Positions 33,932 to 45,849 of a DNA stretch of 64,000 nucleotides are shown one piece after another. The stretch is from Methanoregula sp. (GTDB lineage: Archaea; Halobacteriota; Methanomicrobia; Methanomicrobiales; Methanospirillaceae). Position numbers and translations under genes: made by a program. How positions within the stretch are numbered: the stretch's first letter is position 1; every line of letters begins with the position of its first letter. Where the stretch lies: assembly GCA_003141335.1 (NCBI GenBank), contig PLLR01000022.1, positions 13,244 through 77,243 of the forward strand, read 5' to 3'. The notes beneath the pieces are model-generated. The model did no database searches. It saw only the letters and a list, made by a program, of their open reading frames with translations, and had not been told where the DNA came from.

Positions 33932-34513
33932 TTATTCAATTATTGAGAGTACACCGGTAGCAAGATCGTAATAGAGGCCATGAACCTGCACTCTCTTCTC
34001 ATCAACTGCTTTTTTCAGCAGGGGATAGGTATGGAGGTGTTCGATCTGGAGTCTCACGTTCTCCTGTTCTATCTGGCGGTACCTCTCCTCCTTTTCGAGC
34101 ACGGTTGTCGGGGGAGTGATCTTTTTATCCACCCGCTCTTTTGCATCACGGGCATTGTTCAGCCAGAGCGGTATGTAAGAATCGGTGCTTTCCTTATCGA
34201 GTGCCCGGATCGCACCGCAGTTTGAATGCCCGCAGATGACCACGTCCTGAACCTTGAGGTGCACAACAGCGTATTCAAGTACGGTTGCAAAGTTCCAGTC
34301 GTGGATTGGTACGATATTCCCGATATTTCTCTGGATGAACAGTTCCCCCGCTTTTGCCTGGGTGATATGCCCTGTCTGGAGTCGTGAGTCTGAGCACCCT
34401 ATCCAGAGCACCGTCGGGTGCTGACTGGATGCCAGTTCGCGGTAGTAGTCGATATTCGGGGTGAAATCAGATTCTCTGAACTTATAATTTCCCAGCAATA
34501 ATTTGTCGATCAT
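33932..34513 (-). CDS. Beta-class carbonic anhydrase
   Basis: VLWIGCSDSRLQTGHI, DVVICGHSNCGAIRAL. Confidence 0.93.
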   Translation of the reverse strand: MIDKLLLGNYKFRESDFTPNIDYYRELASSQHPTVLWIGCSDSRLQTGHITQAKAGELFIQRNIGNIVPIHDWNFATVLEYAVVHLKVQDVVICGHSNCGAIRALDKESTDSYIPLWLNNARDAKERVDKKITPPTTVLEKEERYRQIEQENVRLQIEHLHTYPLLKKAVDEKRVQVHGLYYDLATGVLSIIE

Positions 34514-34954: not shown

Positions 34955-35614
34955 TTGTGGAGGTGCTGTATACCGATCATTGCTTCTTATGCTGACCCGG
35001 AACCGTTCAGCGAGGACCAGACCCTTCTTACCCTTTATACACTTGCAGGAGAGGAGAGCGGAGGTTTTGTCACATTCCGCCCTCATTTTTTCATTCAGAT
35101 TGGTAAAGCCTTGTTTTCTCAGGGTATCATTGCCTCACCGGTTCAGATTATCGGTGCTGTGGATGTACGGGAGCTTACCTCTGCTGAACTCGCTCGTGCC
35201 GAACGGGAGCTCTGGACCCATTACCATCAGCAGACCGCTGATCGGGTCAATGACCGGCTCTTTGCAGCCTTTGCTGGCATCAAACTGATTGGGGTGGCAC
35301 GGTGCTCACGCCATCCGGACGGTCTTGAAGTCGACGCTGTCTATGTTCTGGATGAATACCGGCGCCATGGATTTGCCCGTTCGGTTATGATCCTTCTCAT
35401 CGAGGAGTGCGGCAGGAAGGAGACTCTCTATATGCACTCGAAGATTGAACTGGTGGATTTCTATGGAAGTCTGGGTTTCCTCCCAATGACCGAGAGTGAT
35501 CTGCCAAAAACAATCCGGGACCGGTTCGGGTTCTGCATGGGGAATCTCAAGGGGATAGATGTCTGCCCGATGAAACGTGATCCCACTGCTCTTACTACGG
35601 AACAGAATACCTGA
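34955..35614 (+). CDS. GNAT-family N-acetyltransferase
   Basis: LEVDAVYVLDEYRRHGFARSVMILLIEECGRKETLYMHSKIELVDFYGSLGF. Confidence 0.85.
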   Translation: MWRCCIPIIASYADPEPFSEDQTLLTLYTLAGEESGGFVTFRPHFFIQIGKALFSQGIIASPVQIIGAVDVRELTSAELARAERELWTHYHQQTADRVNDRLFAAFAGIKLIGVARCSRHPDGLEVDAVYVLDEYRRHGFARSVMILLIEECGRKETLYMHSKIELVDFYGSLGFLPMTESDLPKTIRDRFGFCMGNLKGIDVCPMKRDPTALTTEQNT

Positions 35615-35732: not shown

Positions 35733-37676
35733 ATGATTGTTGAACTTTTCGTTCTCGCAATTATAATTCTTTTTGCCGGTACAATCTTTCCCCTCATAGC
35801 TGCATCGTTGGACCGGAGATCCGTACGGACGATCTCGCTCTCCTGTACAATCGTTGCATCCATTCTGCTGGGGAGTCTCTCTCTTATGGTCCTGCTTTCC
35901 GGTGAATCAGTGTTCTTTTCTCTCTACCAATCCCTCCCTGCATTTTCCCTCTCATTTGTTATCGACCGGCTCGCTTCATTTTTCCTGCTCATTATCGCAG
36001 TCGTATCGGCTTGTGTTGCCCTCTACTTCACTGAATACATTGAGCATATTGACGGGCAGTCCCGCAGGAACCTGCTCTGCAGCTGCACCAGTCTCTTCAT
36101 TCTCGCAATGGTGCTTGTCGTAGCCTCGGCAAACACGCTCTCATTTTTCCTGTTCTGGGAACTGATGGCTGCGAGTTCATTTTTCCTCGTCATGTACGAA
36201 TATTCGCAGTACGACACAAGAAAAGCCGGTATCTTTTATTTTATCATGACCCAGCTCTCTTCCCTTTTTGTCCTGCTGGGAATCATCGTTCTCTATGTAA
36301 TGACCGGTTCGTTTTCTTTTCTGCCTCTGACAACTGCATCAGCACCCCTTGTCACCGTTGCATTCCTCGCTCTTTTTGTAGGATTCTCCATCAAGGCGGG
36401 AATCATACCGTTCCACAAGTGGCTCCCGTATGCTCACCCGGCAAGTCCATCACCAATATCCGCTCTCATGTCAGGAGTGATGCTCAAGATCGCAGTATAT
36501 GGCCTTGTGCGTTTCCTGTTGGATGTTTTCACTCCGGATCTCTGGTGGGGTGTGCTGATTCTTGCCGCGGGTACTGCATCGGCGGTTCTCGGCATCATCT
36601 ACGCGTTAAAAGAGCATGACGTCAAGGGGATGCTCGCCTATTCGAGCATTGAGAATATCGGCATCATTTTTACTGGTATCGGTCTGTCAGTGATCTTTAC
36701 TGCCAGTAATCTACCCCTGCTCGCAACCCTCAGCCTGCTGGGTGCGCTCTTCCACTCCCTGAACCACGCCATGTTCAAGAGCCTGCTCTTCCTCACTGCA
36801 GGTTCCGTTGTGTCTGCCACCCATACGCGGAATATCGAATACATGGGAGGACTTGCCCCCCGGATGCCGGTTACCTCTGCGCTCTTCTTTGTTGGCGCAG
36901 TCTCGATAGCCGCATTACCCCCCCTGAACGGGTTTGCCAGCGAGTTCCTGATCTTCATCTCGTTCTTCTCCTCCGTTTCTGTTGTGGATCCGCTGTTTAA
37001 AGTGCTCCTTTTTTTCTGCCTTGCCCTGTTTGCCCTGACCAGTGCGCTATCAGCAGCATGCTTTGTCAAGGCGTTCGGATCGATTTTCCTTGCCCTGCCG
37101 CGTTCTCCTGAGAGCGCCGCTGCCCACGAAGTCCCCCGTGCAATGCTGATCGGGCCGGGTATCCTTGCGGCTACCTGCATTCTTTTGGGAGTATGCGCCC
37201 TCCAGATCTTTGCAATCGTTGGTCTTACCGTTCCCCTTCCGGATATGCTGCTTGTCAGCCTGCTGCTTCTTGGCATGGCTGTTCTCACGTATGCGATGTT
37301 GTATTTCATCGCTTCCCGGGAGGTGCGGGTGAGCGAAACATGGGGATGCGGGACGTTCTCCCAGCAGGCATCGGCAGAATACAGTGGTCACGGTTTCTCA
37401 GAACCTCTCGACATCATCTTCTCTGCGATCTACCGCACCCGGACAATAAATGAACGGACGTTCTTTGATCAAAAGAACTGCATCTTCAAGGGGGGTACCG
37501 GAGAGATACGTCTCTTAAAGGTATTTGAGGAATACCTCTACCGCCCCATAGCGCAGCAGTCCCTGAGTGTAGCTAAAGTTGTATCACGCTTCCAGAACGG
37601 GTGCCTTGACACCTATCTCCTCTATGTCTTTGTCACGGTCATTGCCCTGATCATTTTCCTCGGGTGGTTTGCATGA
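35733..37676 (+). CDS. NuoL/HyfB-type antiporter-like membrane subunit of a group-4-hydrogenase-related complex
   Basis: Many TM segments; LFWELMAASSFFLVMYE and GFSIKAGIIPFHKWLPYAHPASPSPISALMSG keep the TM5 Glu and TM7 Lys regions. Confidence 0.9.
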   Translation: MIVELFVLAIIILFAGTIFPLIAASLDRRSVRTISLSCTIVASILLGSLSLMVLLSGESVFFSLYQSLPAFSLSFVIDRLASFFLLIIAVVSACVALYFTEYIEHIDGQSRRNLLCSCTSLFILAMVLVVASANTLSFFLFWELMAASSFFLVMYEYSQYDTRKAGIFYFIMTQLSSLFVLLGIIVLYVMTGSFSFLPLTTASAPLVTVAFLALFVGFSIKAGIIPFHKWLPYAHPASPSPISALMSGVMLKIAVYGLVRFLLDVFTPDLWWGVLILAAGTASAVLGIIYALKEHDVKGMLAYSSIENIGIIFTGIGLSVIFTASNLPLLATLSLLGALFHSLNHAMFKSLLFLTAGSVVSATHTRNIEYMGGLAPRMPVTSALFFVGAVSIAALPPLNGFASEFLIFISFFSSVSVVDPLFKVLLFFCLALFALTSALSAACFVKAFGSIFLALPRSPESAAAHEVPRAMLIGPGILAATCILLGVCALQIFAIVGLTVPLPDMLLVSLLLLGMAVLTYAMLYFIASREVRVSETWGCGTFSQQASAEYSGHGFSEPLDIIFSAIYRTRTINERTFFDQKNCIFKGGTGEIRLLKVFEEYLYRPIAQQSLSVAKVVSRFQNGCLDTYLLYVFVTVIALIIFLGWFA

Positions 37677-38614
37677 ACTTCGATTTTGTCCTGTACCTTG
37701 TGATCAATACGCTTGTTGTCATTGCAATTTCACCCCTCTTTGTCAGCCTGATAAAAAAAGTCAAAGCCGGGACACAGGGACGGCAGGGTCCATCAGTCTT
37801 CCAGACATACTTTACGCTGATAAAACTGTTAAAAAAAGAGGTCATCTACTCTCCTAACTCCTCGCGGATCATGCGGGTCACTCCCCTTGTCACGATGGCA
37901 GCTATCCTTGTTGCCGCTCTCTTTGTCCCGCTGGTCTTTGTACCCGAACCCATCGGGGGTATCGGCAACATCATCCTCTTTCTGTACCTGCTTGCGCTGG
38001 CCCGGTTTTTTATGGCGCTCGCCGGTCTTGATGCCGGCAGTTCCTTTGGAGGTATGGGCAGTTCGCGGGAGATGAGCATCTCGGCGATCATCGAGCCCAC
38101 GACCATTATCGTTTTTGCTGCGCTTGCATTCGTCTTTAAGACACTCAATATCTTTGACATGTTTGCCCTCACAGCAGCAACCGGATCACCTGCTACCCCG
38201 ACACTGATTCTGATCGGCATCTCGCTGTTTATCATTCTCATAGTAGAGACCTCGCGGATACCGGTCGATAACCCTGAGACACATCTCGAACTGACCATGA
38301 TCCACGAGGGGATGATCCTCGAACAATCCGGCAGGAACTTTGCCCTCATGGAGCTTTCCGCTGCTGTCAAGATGACCGTACTTATGGCGCTTCTCATCAA
38401 CCTGATCGTCCCCTTGGGGCTTACGACTTCCCTCACCTTTGCAGGGATTCTCATCGCTGTGATCGTATTCATGGTGAAAGGTTCGATCCTTGCCGGAATA
38501 ATCGGGCTCTTCGAATCATCAATGGCAAAGAAACGGTTTTTCCAGCTCCCCAGTCTCTTTGCCATGGCGTTCTTCTTCTCAACCCTTGTCATCATCATCG
38601 AGGTGTTCTCATGA
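37664..38614 (+). CDS. NuoH/HyfC-like membrane subunit
   Basis: GRQGPSVFQTYFTLIKLLKKE, ETSRIPVDNPETHLELTMIHEGMILE. Confidence 0.92.
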   Translation: MVCMNFDFVLYLVINTLVVIAISPLFVSLIKKVKAGTQGRQGPSVFQTYFTLIKLLKKEVIYSPNSSRIMRVTPLVTMAAILVAALFVPLVFVPEPIGGIGNIILFLYLLALARFFMALAGLDAGSSFGGMGSSREMSISAIIEPTTIIVFAALAFVFKTLNIFDMFALTAATGSPATPTLILIGISLFIILIVETSRIPVDNPETHLELTMIHEGMILEQSGRNFALMELSAAVKMTVLMALLINLIVPLGLTTSLTFAGILIAVIVFMVKGSILAGIIGLFESSMAKKRFFQLPSLFAMAFFFSTLVIIIEVFS

Positions 38615-39303
38615 TCGAGACGGCAATAGTTGTTGCGATCATCAGAATCCTGTTTGTCTGCATCATCATTACTGCAGCCTACATCATCTCAACACGCAAC
38701 CTGCTCTCCGTGGTGTCAGTCTATGCCCTCCAGAGTCTCACTCTTGTCTGCATCGCCCTTGCGCTCTATTCGCTTGAGGGATCCATCGTTCTTCTGGCGA
38801 TCGCGGTGGTTACGTTTATCAGTAAGGTAATAATCATCCCGTATTTCATCGCAACCATCCAGGAAAAGATCCGGATCAAGCGGGACATCGAGTTCCATTA
38901 CTTAAATCCCACCACATCGTTGCTCATCTCCATGGCACTGATGCTGGTCATCTACATGGCACTCGCAAGAATTGTACAGGGAACACCGGCACGGGAGAAC
39001 CTCTTCTTCTTTGGCGCCGTGCTGGGGATATCCCTGATGCTGATGGGCATGATGGTGACGTTCAGCCGGAAGCGGGCGATCACAAAAGTACTGGGGTTCC
39101 TCTCTATGGAAAACGGGGTGCTCCTCTTTGGTATGTTTGTCACCGAACTCCCGTTCATCATCGAGTTTTTGATCATCATCGACCTTATCATCCTCGTTAT
39201 CCTGACGACCATATTATCTGTCGGTATTGACTCAACACTTGAGGATTACCACAAACGTCTCCACCGCTTCCATCTCCTTGAAGAGTCTGAGGAGGTTTCA
39301 TGA
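38611..39303 (+). CDS. HyfE-like membrane subunit
   Basis: ATGA overlap with the upstream gene; hydrophobic NuoK-like N-terminal half, HyfE-like length (230 aa) and position. Confidence 0.85.
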   Translation: MIETAIVVAIIRILFVCIIITAAYIISTRNLLSVVSVYALQSLTLVCIALALYSLEGSIVLLAIAVVTFISKVIIIPYFIATIQEKIRIKRDIEFHYLNPTTSLLISMALMLVIYMALARIVQGTPARENLFFFGAVLGISLMLMGMMVTFSRKRAITKVLGFLSMENGVLLFGMFVTELPFIIEFLIIIDLIILVILTTILSVGIDSTLEDYHKRLHRFHLLEESEEVS

Positions 39304-40781
39304 TCCTGATCGCATTTGTGCTGGTATCCGTGCTCTCGCTTGTCATCATCGCAGCCACCCGGAGCCACCGGCAGATGAACACCGTCTGTATCACGCAGGC
39401 ACTGATCTTTGCCGCGCTTGCTGCCTATGTCGTTATATTCCAGCAGGTACCGGTTGTTTCGTTTCTTGTCGGCAGCCAGTACTTCTTTATCGATCACCTC
39501 GGTCTTTTTGAGGTGCTCATCGCCACGGTCATTTTTGCCTGTGCTGCGATCTACGCCCGCGGATATGTCGAAGGACTCCTTGAGAGCGGAGAACTGGAGA
39601 AAGGCAGTCTCAAGCTCTTCTATGCGGCATGGGCCCTGCTCCTTCTGGTAATTGTCCTTGCGTTCTTCTCTGATAATCTCGCACTCTTCTGGATCTTTGC
39701 CGAACTGACCACAATCATCTCTGCGATGCTCATCGCCATTCTGGCAGCCCGTGAGAACATCGATGCAGCGATCAAGTATATTTTCGTAGCGTCAGTCTCC
39801 ATGCTCTTTGCCTTTGTCGGGTTCATTTTTCTCTTCGAGATATCACGGGTCAGTCTTGGCGCAGGCACCCTGAACTGGACGGTGCTCATGCAGCATGCCA
39901 CTGCTTTTCCCCCGGGTATGATGATCGCTTCCTTTGTGCTCGTCTTTGTCGGGTTTGCTGCAAAGTCCGGGATCTTCCCGTTCCATACCTGGCTACCGGA
40001 AGCCCATGCCAAAGCCCCGTCGGCAGTTAGTGCCATTCTCTCGGGTGTCCTGTTGAATGTGGGTATCTACGGGATCATCCGCGTGTATGCGATTGTGCGC
40101 CAGACAACAGCCGTTGCTACCATTGCACCGATGCTTTCGGTGTTTGGAATCCTCACGATTAGCATTGCCGCCCTCTCCATGCTTCCCCAGAAAAACTTAA
40201 AAAAACTGGTGGCATTCTCCAGTGTGGAGAATATGGGGATTATGCTTGTCGGTCTTGCCATCTCCACGCCTATTGCGCTGTTCTGGGTGCTCTTCCATAT
40301 CATGGCGCATTCCTTCACAAAGGCATCACTGTTCTTCTCATCAGGCATCCTGCACCGGCAGTACCGGAGCCGGTTCTCGAGTGATGCAGCAGATGAGATA
40401 CGGGATGTATTCCGGCTCCAGCCGCTTGCAGCGTGGGGAATTATTCTCGGCGGTCTTGCGATCATCGGTATGCCCCCGTTTCCCATCTTCTTCTCTGAAT
40501 TCTTCATTCTGATGCAGCTGGGTGCAGTCTCCTTATGGGTGCTTGGCGTGATGCTCATCCTGCTGTTCATTGCTGCCGGGGGACTGGGATACTTTGTGCT
40601 TACGACATTTACGCAGGTATCTGAACCTAAAACATCATCAGATATTGAACCGTACCGGACACCTGCCAGCATGAAGGTCCCCACCATCTTCCTGCTGGTG
40701 CTCCTCCTCGTTGTCGGGATCTTTCTTCCCACAAGTGGCATGGAGTTCCTCAACCAGATTGTAACGGAGCTGAAATTCTGA
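39300..40781 (+). CDS. HyfF/NuoN-like antiporter subunit
   Basis: FWIFAELTTIISAMLIA, GFAAKSGIFPFHTWLPEAHAKAPSAVSAILSGVLLNVGIYG. Confidence 0.92.
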   Translation: MILIAFVLVSVLSLVIIAATRSHRQMNTVCITQALIFAALAAYVVIFQQVPVVSFLVGSQYFFIDHLGLFEVLIATVIFACAAIYARGYVEGLLESGELEKGSLKLFYAAWALLLLVIVLAFFSDNLALFWIFAELTTIISAMLIAILAARENIDAAIKYIFVASVSMLFAFVGFIFLFEISRVSLGAGTLNWTVLMQHATAFPPGMMIASFVLVFVGFAAKSGIFPFHTWLPEAHAKAPSAVSAILSGVLLNVGIYGIIRVYAIVRQTTAVATIAPMLSVFGILTISIAALSMLPQKNLKKLVAFSSVENMGIMLVGLAISTPIALFWVLFHIMAHSFTKASLFFSSGILHRQYRSRFSSDAADEIRDVFRLQPLAAWGIILGGLAIIGMPPFPIFFSEFFILMQLGAVSLWVLGVMLILLFIAAGGLGYFVLTTFTQVSEPKTSSDIEPYRTPASMKVPTIFLLVLLLVVGIFLPTSGMEFLNQIVTELKF

Positions 40782-42361
40782 TGATTGCTGATAAGGATAT
40801 CGGGATCAGGGCGGTACAGGAATTTCTTGGAGATGATGCCCTGCCAGACCGGATCAGTTCCGGATCCAATAATGAACATTACGTGCTTCTCGAAGAGCCG
40901 GAATTCGAAATGGCTGTATCTCATCTTGCTGCAAACAAGTTTGTTCTGATAAGCCTCTTCTGCTGCGAAGGCTTCTTTAAGAATGCTGCGCACACGCTCT
41001 TTTATGTGTTTGAACGGAGGACAAGCATTCTGGTGCTTGTTCGGGGTGTCAACGGACGAGCAACGTCAATAGCCAGCATCTATCCCTCTGCTTCGTGGTT
41101 CGAACGGGAATGCCGTGACGGGTTCGGCGTTGAATTTGAGGGGGCATTCGATACCCGCAGGCTCTTCCTGCACGAGACGTATCCTGATGGTTTCCACCCG
41201 CTCAAAAAAGCGTTCAGGAACGCACCGATCGTCACGAAGGAGACCGTTGACCCTGTTGACGAATACCCGTTCCGGGAAGTGAGTGGTGAGGGGGTGTACC
41301 AGGTACCGGTTGGCCCGGTGCATGCAGGGATTATCGAGCCCGGTCATTTCAGGTTCAGCGTGATTGGAGAGACGATCTTCAATCTTGAGGTTCGGATGTT
41401 TTACAAGCACCGGGGCATCGAGAAGCTTGCGGAGGGCAAATCCCCGCGGGATTGCATCAGGATTGCCGAAGCGGTGAGCGGTGATGAATCGGTGGCAAAT
41501 GCAACTGCATTCTGCATGGCCGTGGAGCATATCTCACAGATACAGGTTCCAGAACGGGCATGGTACCTGCGGACGATCCTCCTTGAGCTGGAACGTATCT
41601 GCTCACACCTCGGGGATCAGGCGGGGATGCTTGTTGATGTAGCGTTCCCGCTGGGTGCCAACCAGTTCTCGGTGCTGCGCGAGGAATGTTTCCGCGAGAG
41701 TGACCGTTTGACCAGCTCAAGATTCCTGCGGGAGATGATCTGCATTGGCGGGCTGAGCCGTGACGTTTCCAGAACACAGCTCGATGAGCTCACCTCATTT
41801 GTACATCAGATGCGGAAACGGTACAAGATCGGGCTGAAGATTGTGCTCTCGACCGCTTCGGTGATAGACCGGTTCGCCCCGACCGGTGTGATCCGCCATG
41901 CACTGCTGCGACCGCTCAATATCACCGGTCCGGCAGCGCGTGCATCTGGCGGGAAGGTTGATGTCCGGCTAAACCACCCGTACGGCATCTATGACCAGTT
42001 TGTTCCAAAGCCGCAACGGCTCCGGGATGGGGATGTACTCTCCCGGTTTACGATCAAAGCATCGGAGATCATAGACTCGCTCGATCTGATCGAACGTCTG
42101 ATCGCAACAATTCCAGAGGGAGATGTCAGATCAGATGCCCCGATCCGCGACGGATACACGCTTGCGCTGATCGAATCTGCACGGGGACAGAATCTCTGCT
42201 GGGTCTGGATCAAGGATGGTGCAATTGAGCGATATAAGGTCCGGACCGCATCGTTCGGTAACTGGTTGGCGATCGAGCATGCGGTGCAGGGCAACATTGT
42301 CCCGGATTTCCCGGTGATCAACAAGAGCCTGAACCTGTCATATGCGGGGACAGACCTGTGA
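40781..42361 (+). CDS. HyfG-like NuoC-NuoD fusion (large subunit homolog) lacking Ni-ligand Cys motifs
   Basis: NuoC part ASWFERECRDGFGVEF; NuoD-like part VRMFYKHRGIEKLAEG...EAVSGDESVANATAFCMAVE; C-terminus FPVINKSLNLSYAGTDL without DPCxxC. Confidence 0.9.
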   Translation: MIADKDIGIRAVQEFLGDDALPDRISSGSNNEHYVLLEEPEFEMAVSHLAANKFVLISLFCCEGFFKNAAHTLFYVFERRTSILVLVRGVNGRATSIASIYPSASWFERECRDGFGVEFEGAFDTRRLFLHETYPDGFHPLKKAFRNAPIVTKETVDPVDEYPFREVSGEGVYQVPVGPVHAGIIEPGHFRFSVIGETIFNLEVRMFYKHRGIEKLAEGKSPRDCIRIAEAVSGDESVANATAFCMAVEHISQIQVPERAWYLRTILLELERICSHLGDQAGMLVDVAFPLGANQFSVLREECFRESDRLTSSRFLREMICIGGLSRDVSRTQLDELTSFVHQMRKRYKIGLKIVLSTASVIDRFAPTGVIRHALLRPLNITGPAARASGGKVDVRLNHPYGIYDQFVPKPQRLRDGDVLSRFTIKASEIIDSLDLIERLIATIPEGDVRSDAPIRDGYTLALIESARGQNLCWVWIKDGAIERYKVRTASFGNWLAIEHAVQGNIVPDFPVINKSLNLSYAGTDL

Positions 42362-42367
42362 GGTGAG

Positions 42368-42892
42368 ATGAGAATGGTGAACGCATTAACCTGCCTGCTG
42401 AAAAAGAAAGTGACCGAAGAGAAGCCTGCGACGGATGAAGAGGTTGAGGTAATAGGGCGCGAGATGAAAACGGCCATCGATGCGGTGTTTGGCCAGAGTC
42501 TTGCGATCCGCGAGCTGGATACCGGCAGCGACAATGCCGCTGAGATCGAGATCAACAATCTCAACAATCCGTTTTACGATGTGGAACGTTTCGGCATCAC
42601 CTTCGTCGCATCACCCCGTCATGCAGATGTGCTGATGGTGACCGGTGCGGTGACGCATAACATGGCGATCGCAGCAAGGAAGACGTACGATGCGATGCCC
42701 TCACCTAAATTCGTGGTTGCGGTTGGCGATGATGCCTGTGATGGCGGGATCTTTTCGGGAACCTACGCGGTGCTCGGTGGAGCGGATAAGATCTTTCCGG
42801 TCGACCTGAAGATTCCGGGTAATCCTCCGACGCCTACACAGATTCTTACCGGACTTCTTGCCCTGATGAGGATGGCTGGTAAGAAACGGTAG
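42368..42892 (+). CDS. HyfI/NuoB-like small subunit homolog lacking N2-cluster Cys motifs
   Basis: DTGSDNAAEIEINNLNNPFYDVERFGITFV, GDDACDGGIFSGTYAVLGG, IPGNPPTPTQIL align to NuoB/HyfI landmarks. Confidence 0.9.
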   Translation: MRMVNALTCLLKKKVTEEKPATDEEVEVIGREMKTAIDAVFGQSLAIRELDTGSDNAAEIEINNLNNPFYDVERFGITFVASPRHADVLMVTGAVTHNMAIAARKTYDAMPSPKFVVAVGDDACDGGIFSGTYAVLGGADKIFPVDLKIPGNPPTPTQILTGLLALMRMAGKKR

Positions 42893-43082: not shown

Positions 43083-44399
43083 ATGGACGATATCTATCTC
43101 ATTGAGATCCGCCTCTCCCGGACAAAATGGCGGATCAGGGAGACCATTTCTTATATCGGGCGGTTATTCTCCCTTGAACCGTACCTGGAACGGCATCCGC
43201 ATGTCACGTTGTTTGGGCCCCTGACCCTGAATGAAGGTGTCAGCCCCCGTCAGCTCCTGGACGCCATCGGACGGGTGGCAGCCGGGTATGATCCCATCCC
43301 GTTTACCATTGACGGCTGGGAAACGCGGGAGGGAATGCACGGTAGTGTGATTGTATTCCCGGTCAGACCCTCAGAATCCTTAAAAAAACTCACATCTTCG
43401 ATCGCAGATGTACTGTCTCCCCTCGTGCACAGCCACAATATATGGGATTCCCAACCTGCCAGCAAATGGTTTCACGTGACGGTGGCAAATCATCTCAATC
43501 CCACCATTGCATTATCAGTTTTTTCCGTGCTCACGGGATACGAGCAGGAAATGCAGGAACAGGGTATGTCATCCCCCGGTATCCTTTCCCTGGTGGCAAG
43601 CCTGATAAAACGTTTGCTCAACCGAGGAAAAGGGCACGTAGTCCGGCCGGTCACCCTGGATGAAACAGGACTCAGAATTACGGTAATGCAGGGGGAAGTA
43701 ATCCTCGCTGAATATGATCTCCTGGAGAAACGGTGGATCACGGGTGATCACCGTCATACCAATAAATCCTGGCAAAAAACACTCGCACTCTTCCGCCAGC
43801 AATCGGGATTTGAACGACTGGATCCCCTTTCATCACATCCTGATGATATCTTCCTGATTGCTGACCTGCATCTCGGCCATGCGAATATCATCCGCTACTG
43901 TTCACGTCCGTTCCTCGTTTCCGATGTCCGGGAAATGGATCATGTACTGATAAAAAACTGGAACTATACAATTTCTCCCGTGAACCGTGTATATTACCTG
44001 GGAGATTTACGGTATGGAAAAGATGCATTGTCCGCCCTGCAGTACAGGAAAAAACTCAAAGGCTGCATCACCTTTATTGAAGGGAATCACGATGATCCTG
44101 AACCGGGGGCAGTTCCCTGTGCAACCCTTGAATACCGGGGTTTTAAGTTCCTGCTGGTTCACGATCCGGCCACTGCCCCGGAAGAATTTGATGGCTGGAT
44201 AATCCATGGTCACCATCACAACAATGATCTCCGCCACTACCCGTTCATCGATTTTGAGCATCGGAGGATTAACGTGAGTGCAGAAGTGATCGGGTACATT
44301 CCGGTAAATCTGATCCATATCTGTACACTCATAAATGAACACATGTCCAGCGGAGACATGACACCCATTCTTCTGAACTATCCCTATGTAGCAGAATGA
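43083..44399 (+). CDS. Fusion protein: 2H phosphoesterase (LigT-like) + calcineurin-like metallophosphoesterase
   Basis: HPHVTLFGPL and WFHVTVANHL (two HxT motifs); DLHLGHANIIRYCSRPF, YLGDLRYG, EGNHDD, LLVHDP, HGHHHN. Confidence 0.85.
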   Translation: MDDIYLIEIRLSRTKWRIRETISYIGRLFSLEPYLERHPHVTLFGPLTLNEGVSPRQLLDAIGRVAAGYDPIPFTIDGWETREGMHGSVIVFPVRPSESLKKLTSSIADVLSPLVHSHNIWDSQPASKWFHVTVANHLNPTIALSVFSVLTGYEQEMQEQGMSSPGILSLVASLIKRLLNRGKGHVVRPVTLDETGLRITVMQGEVILAEYDLLEKRWITGDHRHTNKSWQKTLALFRQQSGFERLDPLSSHPDDIFLIADLHLGHANIIRYCSRPFLVSDVREMDHVLIKNWNYTISPVNRVYYLGDLRYGKDALSALQYRKKLKGCITFIEGNHDDPEPGAVPCATLEYRGFKFLLVHDPATAPEEFDGWIIHGHHHNNDLRHYPFIDFEHRRINVSAEVIGYIPVNLIHICTLINEHMSSGDMTPILLNYPYVAE

Positions 44400-44469: not shown

Positions 44470-45849
44470 GTGGAAGACAAAGTGTTGTTCGAACGGATTG
44501 TTTCTGAGGGTATAGCCCATAATTCCTATCTTATCGGATCAGGGGGCAGGGCAGCGGTGATCGATCCGCGCCGGGACTGCGATATCTATCTTGAGATTGC
44601 CAGCCGGAATGAACTGGTTATTACCCATATCTTCGAGACACACCGGAATGAGGACTACACCATCGGGTCGCTGGAACTCAAAGGACGGTGCGGAGCGGAG
44701 ATTTTTCATGGCGCACAGATGGCGTTTGCCTATGGAAAGCCGGTAAAGGAGGGCGATAAGTTCACTCTGGGGTCGCTGGTGTTGTCGGTTCTGGAGACCC
44801 CGGGGCATACCGAAGAGAGTATCTCCCTTGTGCTGCGGGACACTGAGGTTGCTGATCAGCCATACATGGTATTTTCCGGTGATACGCTCTTTGCCGGTGA
44901 TATTGCCCGGACTGACTTTTTCGGGCAGGAACGAAAAGCGGAGATGGCGGAAAAAATCTATGATAGTATTGCAAATAAAATCCTGCCGCTTGGTGAAGGC
45001 GTGATCCTCTGTCCCGCCCATGGGGCCGGGTCGGTTTGCGGAGGCGAGATCGCTGATCACCCGTTCACTACTCTTGGTTATGAAAAAAAGACAAATCCCC
45101 TGCTCGCATCAGGCCGTGAATCTTTCATCTCGCGGCGGGTAACCGAATCCCCGTATATCCCTCCCTATTTCCGGCAGATGGAAACATACAACCGGGATGG
45201 TGCACCGATCATGCACCGGTTACCGGACCTGCACCCGCTGTCGATCCAAAAAGTCAACCAGCTCAGGAAATCCGGTTGCCAGATCATCGATATACGGTCC
45301 CCCTCCAGTTTTGGTGCAGGCCATATCCCGGGCAGCATCTCCATCTGGCGAGAAGGTCTCCCTGCATTCATGGGCTGGTTCCTCGATTACCAAAGACCGA
45401 TTGTCATTGTCGATGACTTCAATCTGGATCTTAACGGTGTGGTCCGCCATTTTATCCGGCTTGGTTATGACACTATCGCGGGGGTACTCTCCGGAGGATT
45501 TCCCGCATGGACCAAAGCCGCGCAGGATATAGGAACCGTGCCAACCTGTTCAGTCCAGCAATTAAAGGAGCGTCTTGACAAAGAAAATCCCTTCATTCTT
45601 GATGTACGGGACATTAAAAACTGGCGCGCTGTCGGCCATATCCAAGGTGCCCACCACATCTATATCGGGGAACTACCCCATCATCTTGATGAAATCCCCA
45701 AAAATGAACAAATTGTGGTCTATTGTGATGCCGGCTACAAGGGGAGCCTTGCGGCAAGCATCCTTGCAATTCACCAGTACCACAACCTGACCAATGTTCT
45801 GGGAGGAATGACCGCGTGGAAAAGGGCAGGATTCCGGATAGAGAAATAA
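44470..45849 (+). CDS. Metallo-beta-lactamase-fold protein with two C-terminal rhodanese domains
   Basis: NSYLIGSGGRAAVIDPRRDCDIYLEIA, ETHRNEDYTIGSLEL, TPGHTEESISL, FSGDTLFAGDIARTD; rhodanese IIDIRSPSSFGAGHIPG and ILDVRDIKNWRAVGHIQGA...VVYCDAGYKGS. Confidence 0.87.
   Translation: MEDKVLFERIVSEGIAHNSYLIGSGGRAAVIDPRRDCDIYLEIASRNELVITHIFETHRNEDYTIGSLELKGRCGAEIFHGAQMAFAYGKPVKEGDKFTLGSLVLSVLETPGHTEESISLVLRDTEVADQPYMVFSGDTLFAGDIARTDFFGQERKAEMAEKIYDSIANKILPLGEGVILCPAHGAGSVCGGEIADHPFTTLGYEKKTNPLLASGRESFISRRVTESPYIPPYFRQMETYNRDGAPIMHRLPDLHPLSIQKVNQLRKSGCQIIDIRSPSSFGAGHIPGSISIWREGLPAFMGWFLDYQRPIVIVDDFNLDLNGVVRHFIRLGYDTIAGVLSGGFPAWTKAAQDIGTVPTCSVQQLKERLDKENPFILDVRDIKNWRAVGHIQGAHHIYIGELPHHLDEIPKNEQIVVYCDAGYKGSLAASILAIHQYHNLTNVLGGMTAWKRAGFRIEK

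Follow-up and report, generated by a model that had tools for sequence, protein, structure and literature searches.

In complex I research, one of the central questions is how redox chemistry in the peripheral arm drives the pumping of ions by the membrane arm. The locus described here raises this question in a particular form: what can such a complex do when its known electron carriers are missing? The window, a 64,000-nucleotide stretch of DNA from Methanoregula sp. that was analysed as a whole, contains an operon of six genes in the order HyfB-C-E-F-G-I at positions 35733-42892.

35733..37676, plus strand: HyfB, NuoL-like antiporter subunit, 647 residues (PF00361 and NCBIfam PRK08667.1, both above cut-off)
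37664..38614, plus strand: HyfC, NuoH-like, 316 residues (PF00146)
38611..39303, plus strand: HyfE, NuoK-like, 230 residues (NCBIfam hydrogenase 4 membrane subunit, score below cut-off)
39300..40781, plus strand: HyfF, NuoM/N-like antiporter subunit, 493 residues (PF00361 and NCBIfam PRK08676.1, both above cut-off)
40781..42361, plus strand: HyfG, fused NuoC-NuoD-like large subunit without [NiFe] ligands, 526 residues (PF00346, PF00329 and alignment with HycE, 7z0s_E)
42368..42892, plus strand: HyfI, NuoB-family small subunit without N2 ligands, 174 residues, ATG start (PF01058)

This single operon holds antiporter-like, NuoH-like, large and small subunits, as in Ehr complexes. It corresponds to the E. 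coli hyf operon (A-B-C-D-E-F-G-H-I) without two ferredoxin-like subunits (HyfA and HyfH) and one antiporter subunit (HyfD). Genes for a β-carbonic anhydrase (33932-34513, minus strand) and a GNAT acetyltransferase (34955-35614, plus strand) are located directly upstream, an arrangement repeated in many Methanoregula loci. Downstream of the operon, one open reading frame (43083-44399, plus strand) encodes a 2'-5' RNA ligase-like domain fused to a weak calcineurin-like phosphoesterase match, and another (44470-45849, plus strand) combines a metallo-beta-lactamase domain and two rhodanese domains in one protein.

HyfI matches the PF01058/NuoB family with 91 bits in a Pfam search, and among proteins of solved structure, E. 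coli HycG (7z0s_G, E 2.9e-34) is the closest to it in sequence. Its AlphaFold2 model has a mean pLDDT of 92 and superimposes on MbhJ with an rmsd of 2.1 Å. The protein has the PF01058 fold of the complex I small subunit and lacks the four N2 ligand cysteines characteristic of NuoB; its closest family is hydrogenase-4/FHL and Ehr, not true NuoB. The first-pass annotation had proposed that all four cysteines were lost, and alignment with E. coli HycG, HyfI and two canonical paralogs from the same genome confirmed it, placing D55, A58, D122 and N152 at the ligand positions.

42530..42541, plus strand: HyfI codons 55-58 (DNAA), first two N2 ligand positions, now D55 and A58 (GSDNAAEIEI versus GGCNGCEIEI in HycG)
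42731..42739, plus strand: HyfI codons 122-124 (DAC), third N2 ligand position, now D122, with C124 kept (GDDACDGG versus GACGNSGG)
42821..42823, plus strand: HyfI codon 152, fourth N2 ligand position, now N152 (PGNPP versus PGCPP)

The E. coli, PDB and own-genome alignments rule out misalignment as the cause of the missing cysteines. The spare cysteine, previously described as one position on, is C124, two positions past the third ligand (G-D-D122-A-C124). Among the same-genus HyfI sequences (n = 21, window included), D55, C124 and N152 are each present in 21/21, and D122 in 20/21, with one glutamate, which excludes a sequencing error or a chance event. Conservation of D, A, D and N at the four sites, proposed earlier as a check, holds for D55, D122 and N152, which are near-invariant, as is C124. 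It does not extend to position 58, which is free across the family (A, T, S, P, V). The GDxAC motif was found in 64/64 readable homologs lacking the N2 cysteines.

A high-identity ortholog of HyfI is present in 24 of the 36 same-genus genomes, and the N2 cysteines are missing from all 21 aligned sequences. The earlier concern that close relatives might retain the cysteines therefore does not apply. The dN/dS of the window gene against eight same-genus orthologs is 0.05-0.12, and the median over 106 same-genus pairs is 0.11. The loss of every cofactor ligand could resemble decay if seen in one genome, but the open frames, these dN/dS values and the recurrence of the same states across numerous species from two domains rule out a pseudogene or assembly error, which we regard as having a negligible probability. 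These results support selected divergence, as had been proposed.

A scan of a species-representative genome collection yielded 70 loci, which form a biased census, since one of the two search patterns was the cysteine-less motif itself. The motifs GSDNxxEIE, GDxAC and GNPP recur in Methanoregula, Methanosarcina, Methanospirillum, Altiarchaeota, Bathyarchaeota, Aenigmatarchaeota, Woesearchaeota and Dehalococcoidia; most of the records are metagenome-assembled genomes, so that a binning error could touch any single taxon. HyfI of Micrarchaeota has lost the cysteines with different residues (GSSNDVELE, GDGAC, GNPP), and S, V, G and N occupy its four ligand positions. Five relatives from Actinomycetota have the N2 cysteines. 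The distribution of the operon within the phylum is patchy, because few of 148 evenly drawn genomes contained a close relative. The Altiarchaeales contig L081 (3359-19319) has a second HyfB-C-E-F run after the first operon.

The change is wider than the first-pass annotation had recognised, since the [NiFe] ligands of HyfG and the ferredoxin subunits of the operon are gone too. Alignment of HyfG with HycE (7z0s_E) and the family showed that both CxxC motifs, which characterise the group 4 [NiFe] hydrogenases, have been replaced. A hydrogenase-4-like large subunit without these motifs is a property of Ehr complexes.

41465..41503, plus strand: first [NiFe] motif position of HyfG, residues 229-241, where AEAVSGDES replaces DRVCGICGF (alignment with HycE, HyfG and N2-bearing Ehr)
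42320..42358, plus strand: second [NiFe] motif position of HyfG, residues 514-526, where NKSLNLSYAGTDL replaces IGSLDPCYSCTDR (near-invariant across the family)

The C-terminus of HyfG is the near-invariant NKSxNLSYAGTDL. In the cavity, SGDE and NKSxNLSYAGTD show stronger conservation than the rest of HyfG and also occur in N2-bearing Ehr. The AlphaFold2 model of HyfG (pTM 0.88) has a TM score of 0.86 to HycE; residues 162-196 and 521-526 are its low-confidence parts.

The window operon has no ferredoxin-like electron-transfer subunit of the kind found in group 4 [NiFe] hydrogenases. In none of 54 cysteine-less loci was an open reading frame with a 4Fe-4S motif (C..C..C...C) detected within 1.5 kb of the operon; some of these contigs end inside or near the operon. 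Additional cluster-bearing subunits in the cassette were considered and rejected, because none is common to the compared loci. Pfam and NCBIfam profiles detected no flavin or nucleotide domain in the six operon proteins. The absence of the known electron route at every step tested (N2, [NiFe] ligands and ferredoxin-like subunits) is well supported, and we infer that the peripheral arm passes no electrons by this route.

Two genomes of the same phylum contain Ehr operons with a near-identical altered large-subunit pocket, intact N2 cysteines and a ferredoxin each. In L138 (9347-10090), the N2-bearing HyfI is fused to the ferredoxin, and in L211 (8063-8886) the ferredoxin is a separate adjacent gene. 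The Ehr small subunit can thus occur with the N2 cysteines, as in these relatives, or without them, as in HyfI. The loss of [NiFe] is common to the cysteine-less group and the relatives that retain N2, and the losses of N2 and ferredoxin co-occur in the loci examined. The cysteine-less rows grouped at 99/92 in a small-subunit tree from all columns. After removal of the motif columns, the best small-subunit tree takes two changes, but the AU test does not reject a single clade (p-AU 0.30). In the large-subunit tree, whose motif columns had likewise been removed, these rows grouped at 59/59, and at 94/99 when the long-branched Micrarchaeota row was left out. The small- and large-subunit trees make a single loss of N2 likely, but do not prove it.

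Most charged residues of the ion path are intact in the membrane arm. In HyfB, conservation of E143, H341, H345, K349 and E404 extends across the compared sequences to E. coli HyfB and HycC, and K221 and K252 are each absent from one compared sequence. E195, D202, E209 and E215 of HyfC and E135, K222, H337 and K341 of HyfF are conserved in the compared sequences, E. coli homologs included. The TM12 residue of HyfF alternates between glutamate and lysine, and its TM8 has no lysine, like that of E. coli HyfF. HyfC residues 194-236 include the loop PETHLELTMIHEGM (THLELTMIHEG), which is three residues longer than in E. coli HyfC and HycD and is common to the N2-bearing Ehr L138.

Based on these observations, a function of the complex can be proposed. 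We lean, by a slight balance of probability, towards the six genes at 35733-42892 encoding a complete, redox-inert Ehr-type complex of the hydrogenase-4/complex I superfamily, a predicted ion transporter. HyfB, HyfF, HyfC and HyfE would form an H+ or Na+/H+ transporter. HyfG and HyfI may have been retained as a dock above the former active-site cavity lined by SGDE and NKSxNLSYAGTD; the dock may bind a ligand that gates transport, or may merely close the ion path. The most likely role, as predicted from sequence, is that of an ion transporter without redox activity, in which the peripheral arm acts as a gate or dock. In favour of a redox-inert complex, D55, D122, N152 and C124 are conserved although all four N2 cysteines are replaced, and both [NiFe] motifs have given way to a conserved pocket. 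The operon lacks A, D and H, 4Fe-4S frames are missing around the cysteine-less loci, and the two N2-bearing relatives have ferredoxin. The dN/dS values, which point to purifying selection, the retained folds and the largely retained ion-path residues argue in the same direction. The HyfF variation at TM12 and its TM8 without lysine speak against a redox-inert transporter. The presence of MNHE, which marks Mrp and Mbh alike, provides a weak hint: it was found in 3/24 Ehr-positive and 7/12 Ehr-negative genomes of the genus (Fisher p 0.007), several of them incomplete. Against this, the window genome carries both the Ehr operon and MNHE, and a test on independent pairs did not uphold the anti-correlation, the number of pairs being too small to reach 0.05. 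EF-2 was chosen as the species marker, since McrA is missing or broken in many genomes.

The strongly conserved pocket of HyfG could also be a sign of retained catalysis. F420H2 or a quinone-like two-electron carrier might react in the cavity and drive ion pumping without clusters, and the conservation of SGDE and NKSxNLSYAGTD above the HyfG average, also in N2-bearing Ehr, is consistent with this. We consider such activity unlikely, as the cassette encodes no second redox partner subunit and its proteins have no detected flavin or nucleotide domain. Alternatively, D55, D122, N152 and C124 might bind a metal ion or an unusual cluster in the emptied N2 site; their positions surround the cluster in homologs, and they are kept in all but a few sequences. 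The free position 58 and the S, V, G and N of the Micrarchaeota member make another cofactor quite unlikely.

The gene neighbours would fit a further function, in which CO2, bicarbonate or formate undergoes a non-redox reaction in the former active site and this reaction is coupled to ion movement. Many Methanoregula loci carry a β-carbonic anhydrase gene upstream of the operon, as does M. stamsii. The cysteine-less operons of Methanospirillum L111 and L113 are near formate dehydrogenase and formate transporter genes, and L113 additionally contains a carbonic anhydrase gene. Genes for a formate transporter or dehydrogenase likewise occur near the operon in some Methanoregula and beside the N2-bearing L138. 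The Methanosarcina, Altiarchaeota, Dehalococcoidia and DPANN loci examined have no such neighbours, which makes this reaction very improbable. Conserved neighbours were rejected as a clue to function, because they are limited to certain methanogen lineages.

If the complex is indeed a redox-inert transporter, with both arms kept and every known electron carrier gone, it would be a natural uncoupled version in which the non-electron role of the peripheral arm can be tested. The conservation of such a complex, with its apparent ion-pumping parts, in many archaea and some bacteria probably indicates a role other than Fe-S electron transfer. Caution is advisable before methanogen operons of this type are annotated as ferredoxin-reducing hydrogenases.

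The known system closest to the window operon is Ehr (ehrABCDLS; M. hungatei Mhun_1817-1822), the six-gene set and [NiFe] cysteine loss of which, as given in PMC2686161 and PMC4704411, match it. The Ehr locus L111 of an M. hungatei metagenome-assembled genome has a cysteine-less small subunit as in the window. According to PMC2686161, the [NiFe] cysteines seem to be missing from the operons of M. hungatei, M. acetivorans and M. mazei, which may not code for hydrogenases. PMC4704411 named the M. hungatei genes ehrABCDLS and stated that they likely reduce ferredoxin. This predicted reaction appears unlikely, because the N2 site and ferredoxin subunit are missing. In the passages covered, these two papers describe Ehr only by [NiFe] loss, and PMC6349859 and PMC10284858 likewise describe it by [NiFe] loss, whereas the window operon also lacks N2. 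The loss of [NiFe] in the M. hungatei and Methanosarcina operons was therefore already published. We found no mention of N2 loss in Ehr in the accessible portions of the literature covered; since the central Ehr survey (Marreiros 2013) lies outside that literature, the apparent novelty of N2 loss is a limited claim.

E. coli hydrogenase-4 (Hyf) and formate hydrogenlyase (Hyc, 7z0s) share the subunit order and provide the best PDB matches of HyfG, HyfB and HyfC by sequence, and of HyfG also by fold. They retain [NiFe], N2 and ferredoxin-like subunits, whereas the window operon has none of the three. The folds of HyfI and HyfG match the peripheral subunits NuoB and NuoCD of complex I, and the [NiFe] site is absent from both complexes; unlike the window complex, complex I retains N2 and an electron-input module. 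Mrp-type cation/H+ antiporters have antiporter subunits homologous to those of the window and perform non-redox ion transport of the kind proposed here for the window complex. Mrp has no HyfC, HyfG or HyfI, and the window operon, in turn, has no MrpE-type gene.
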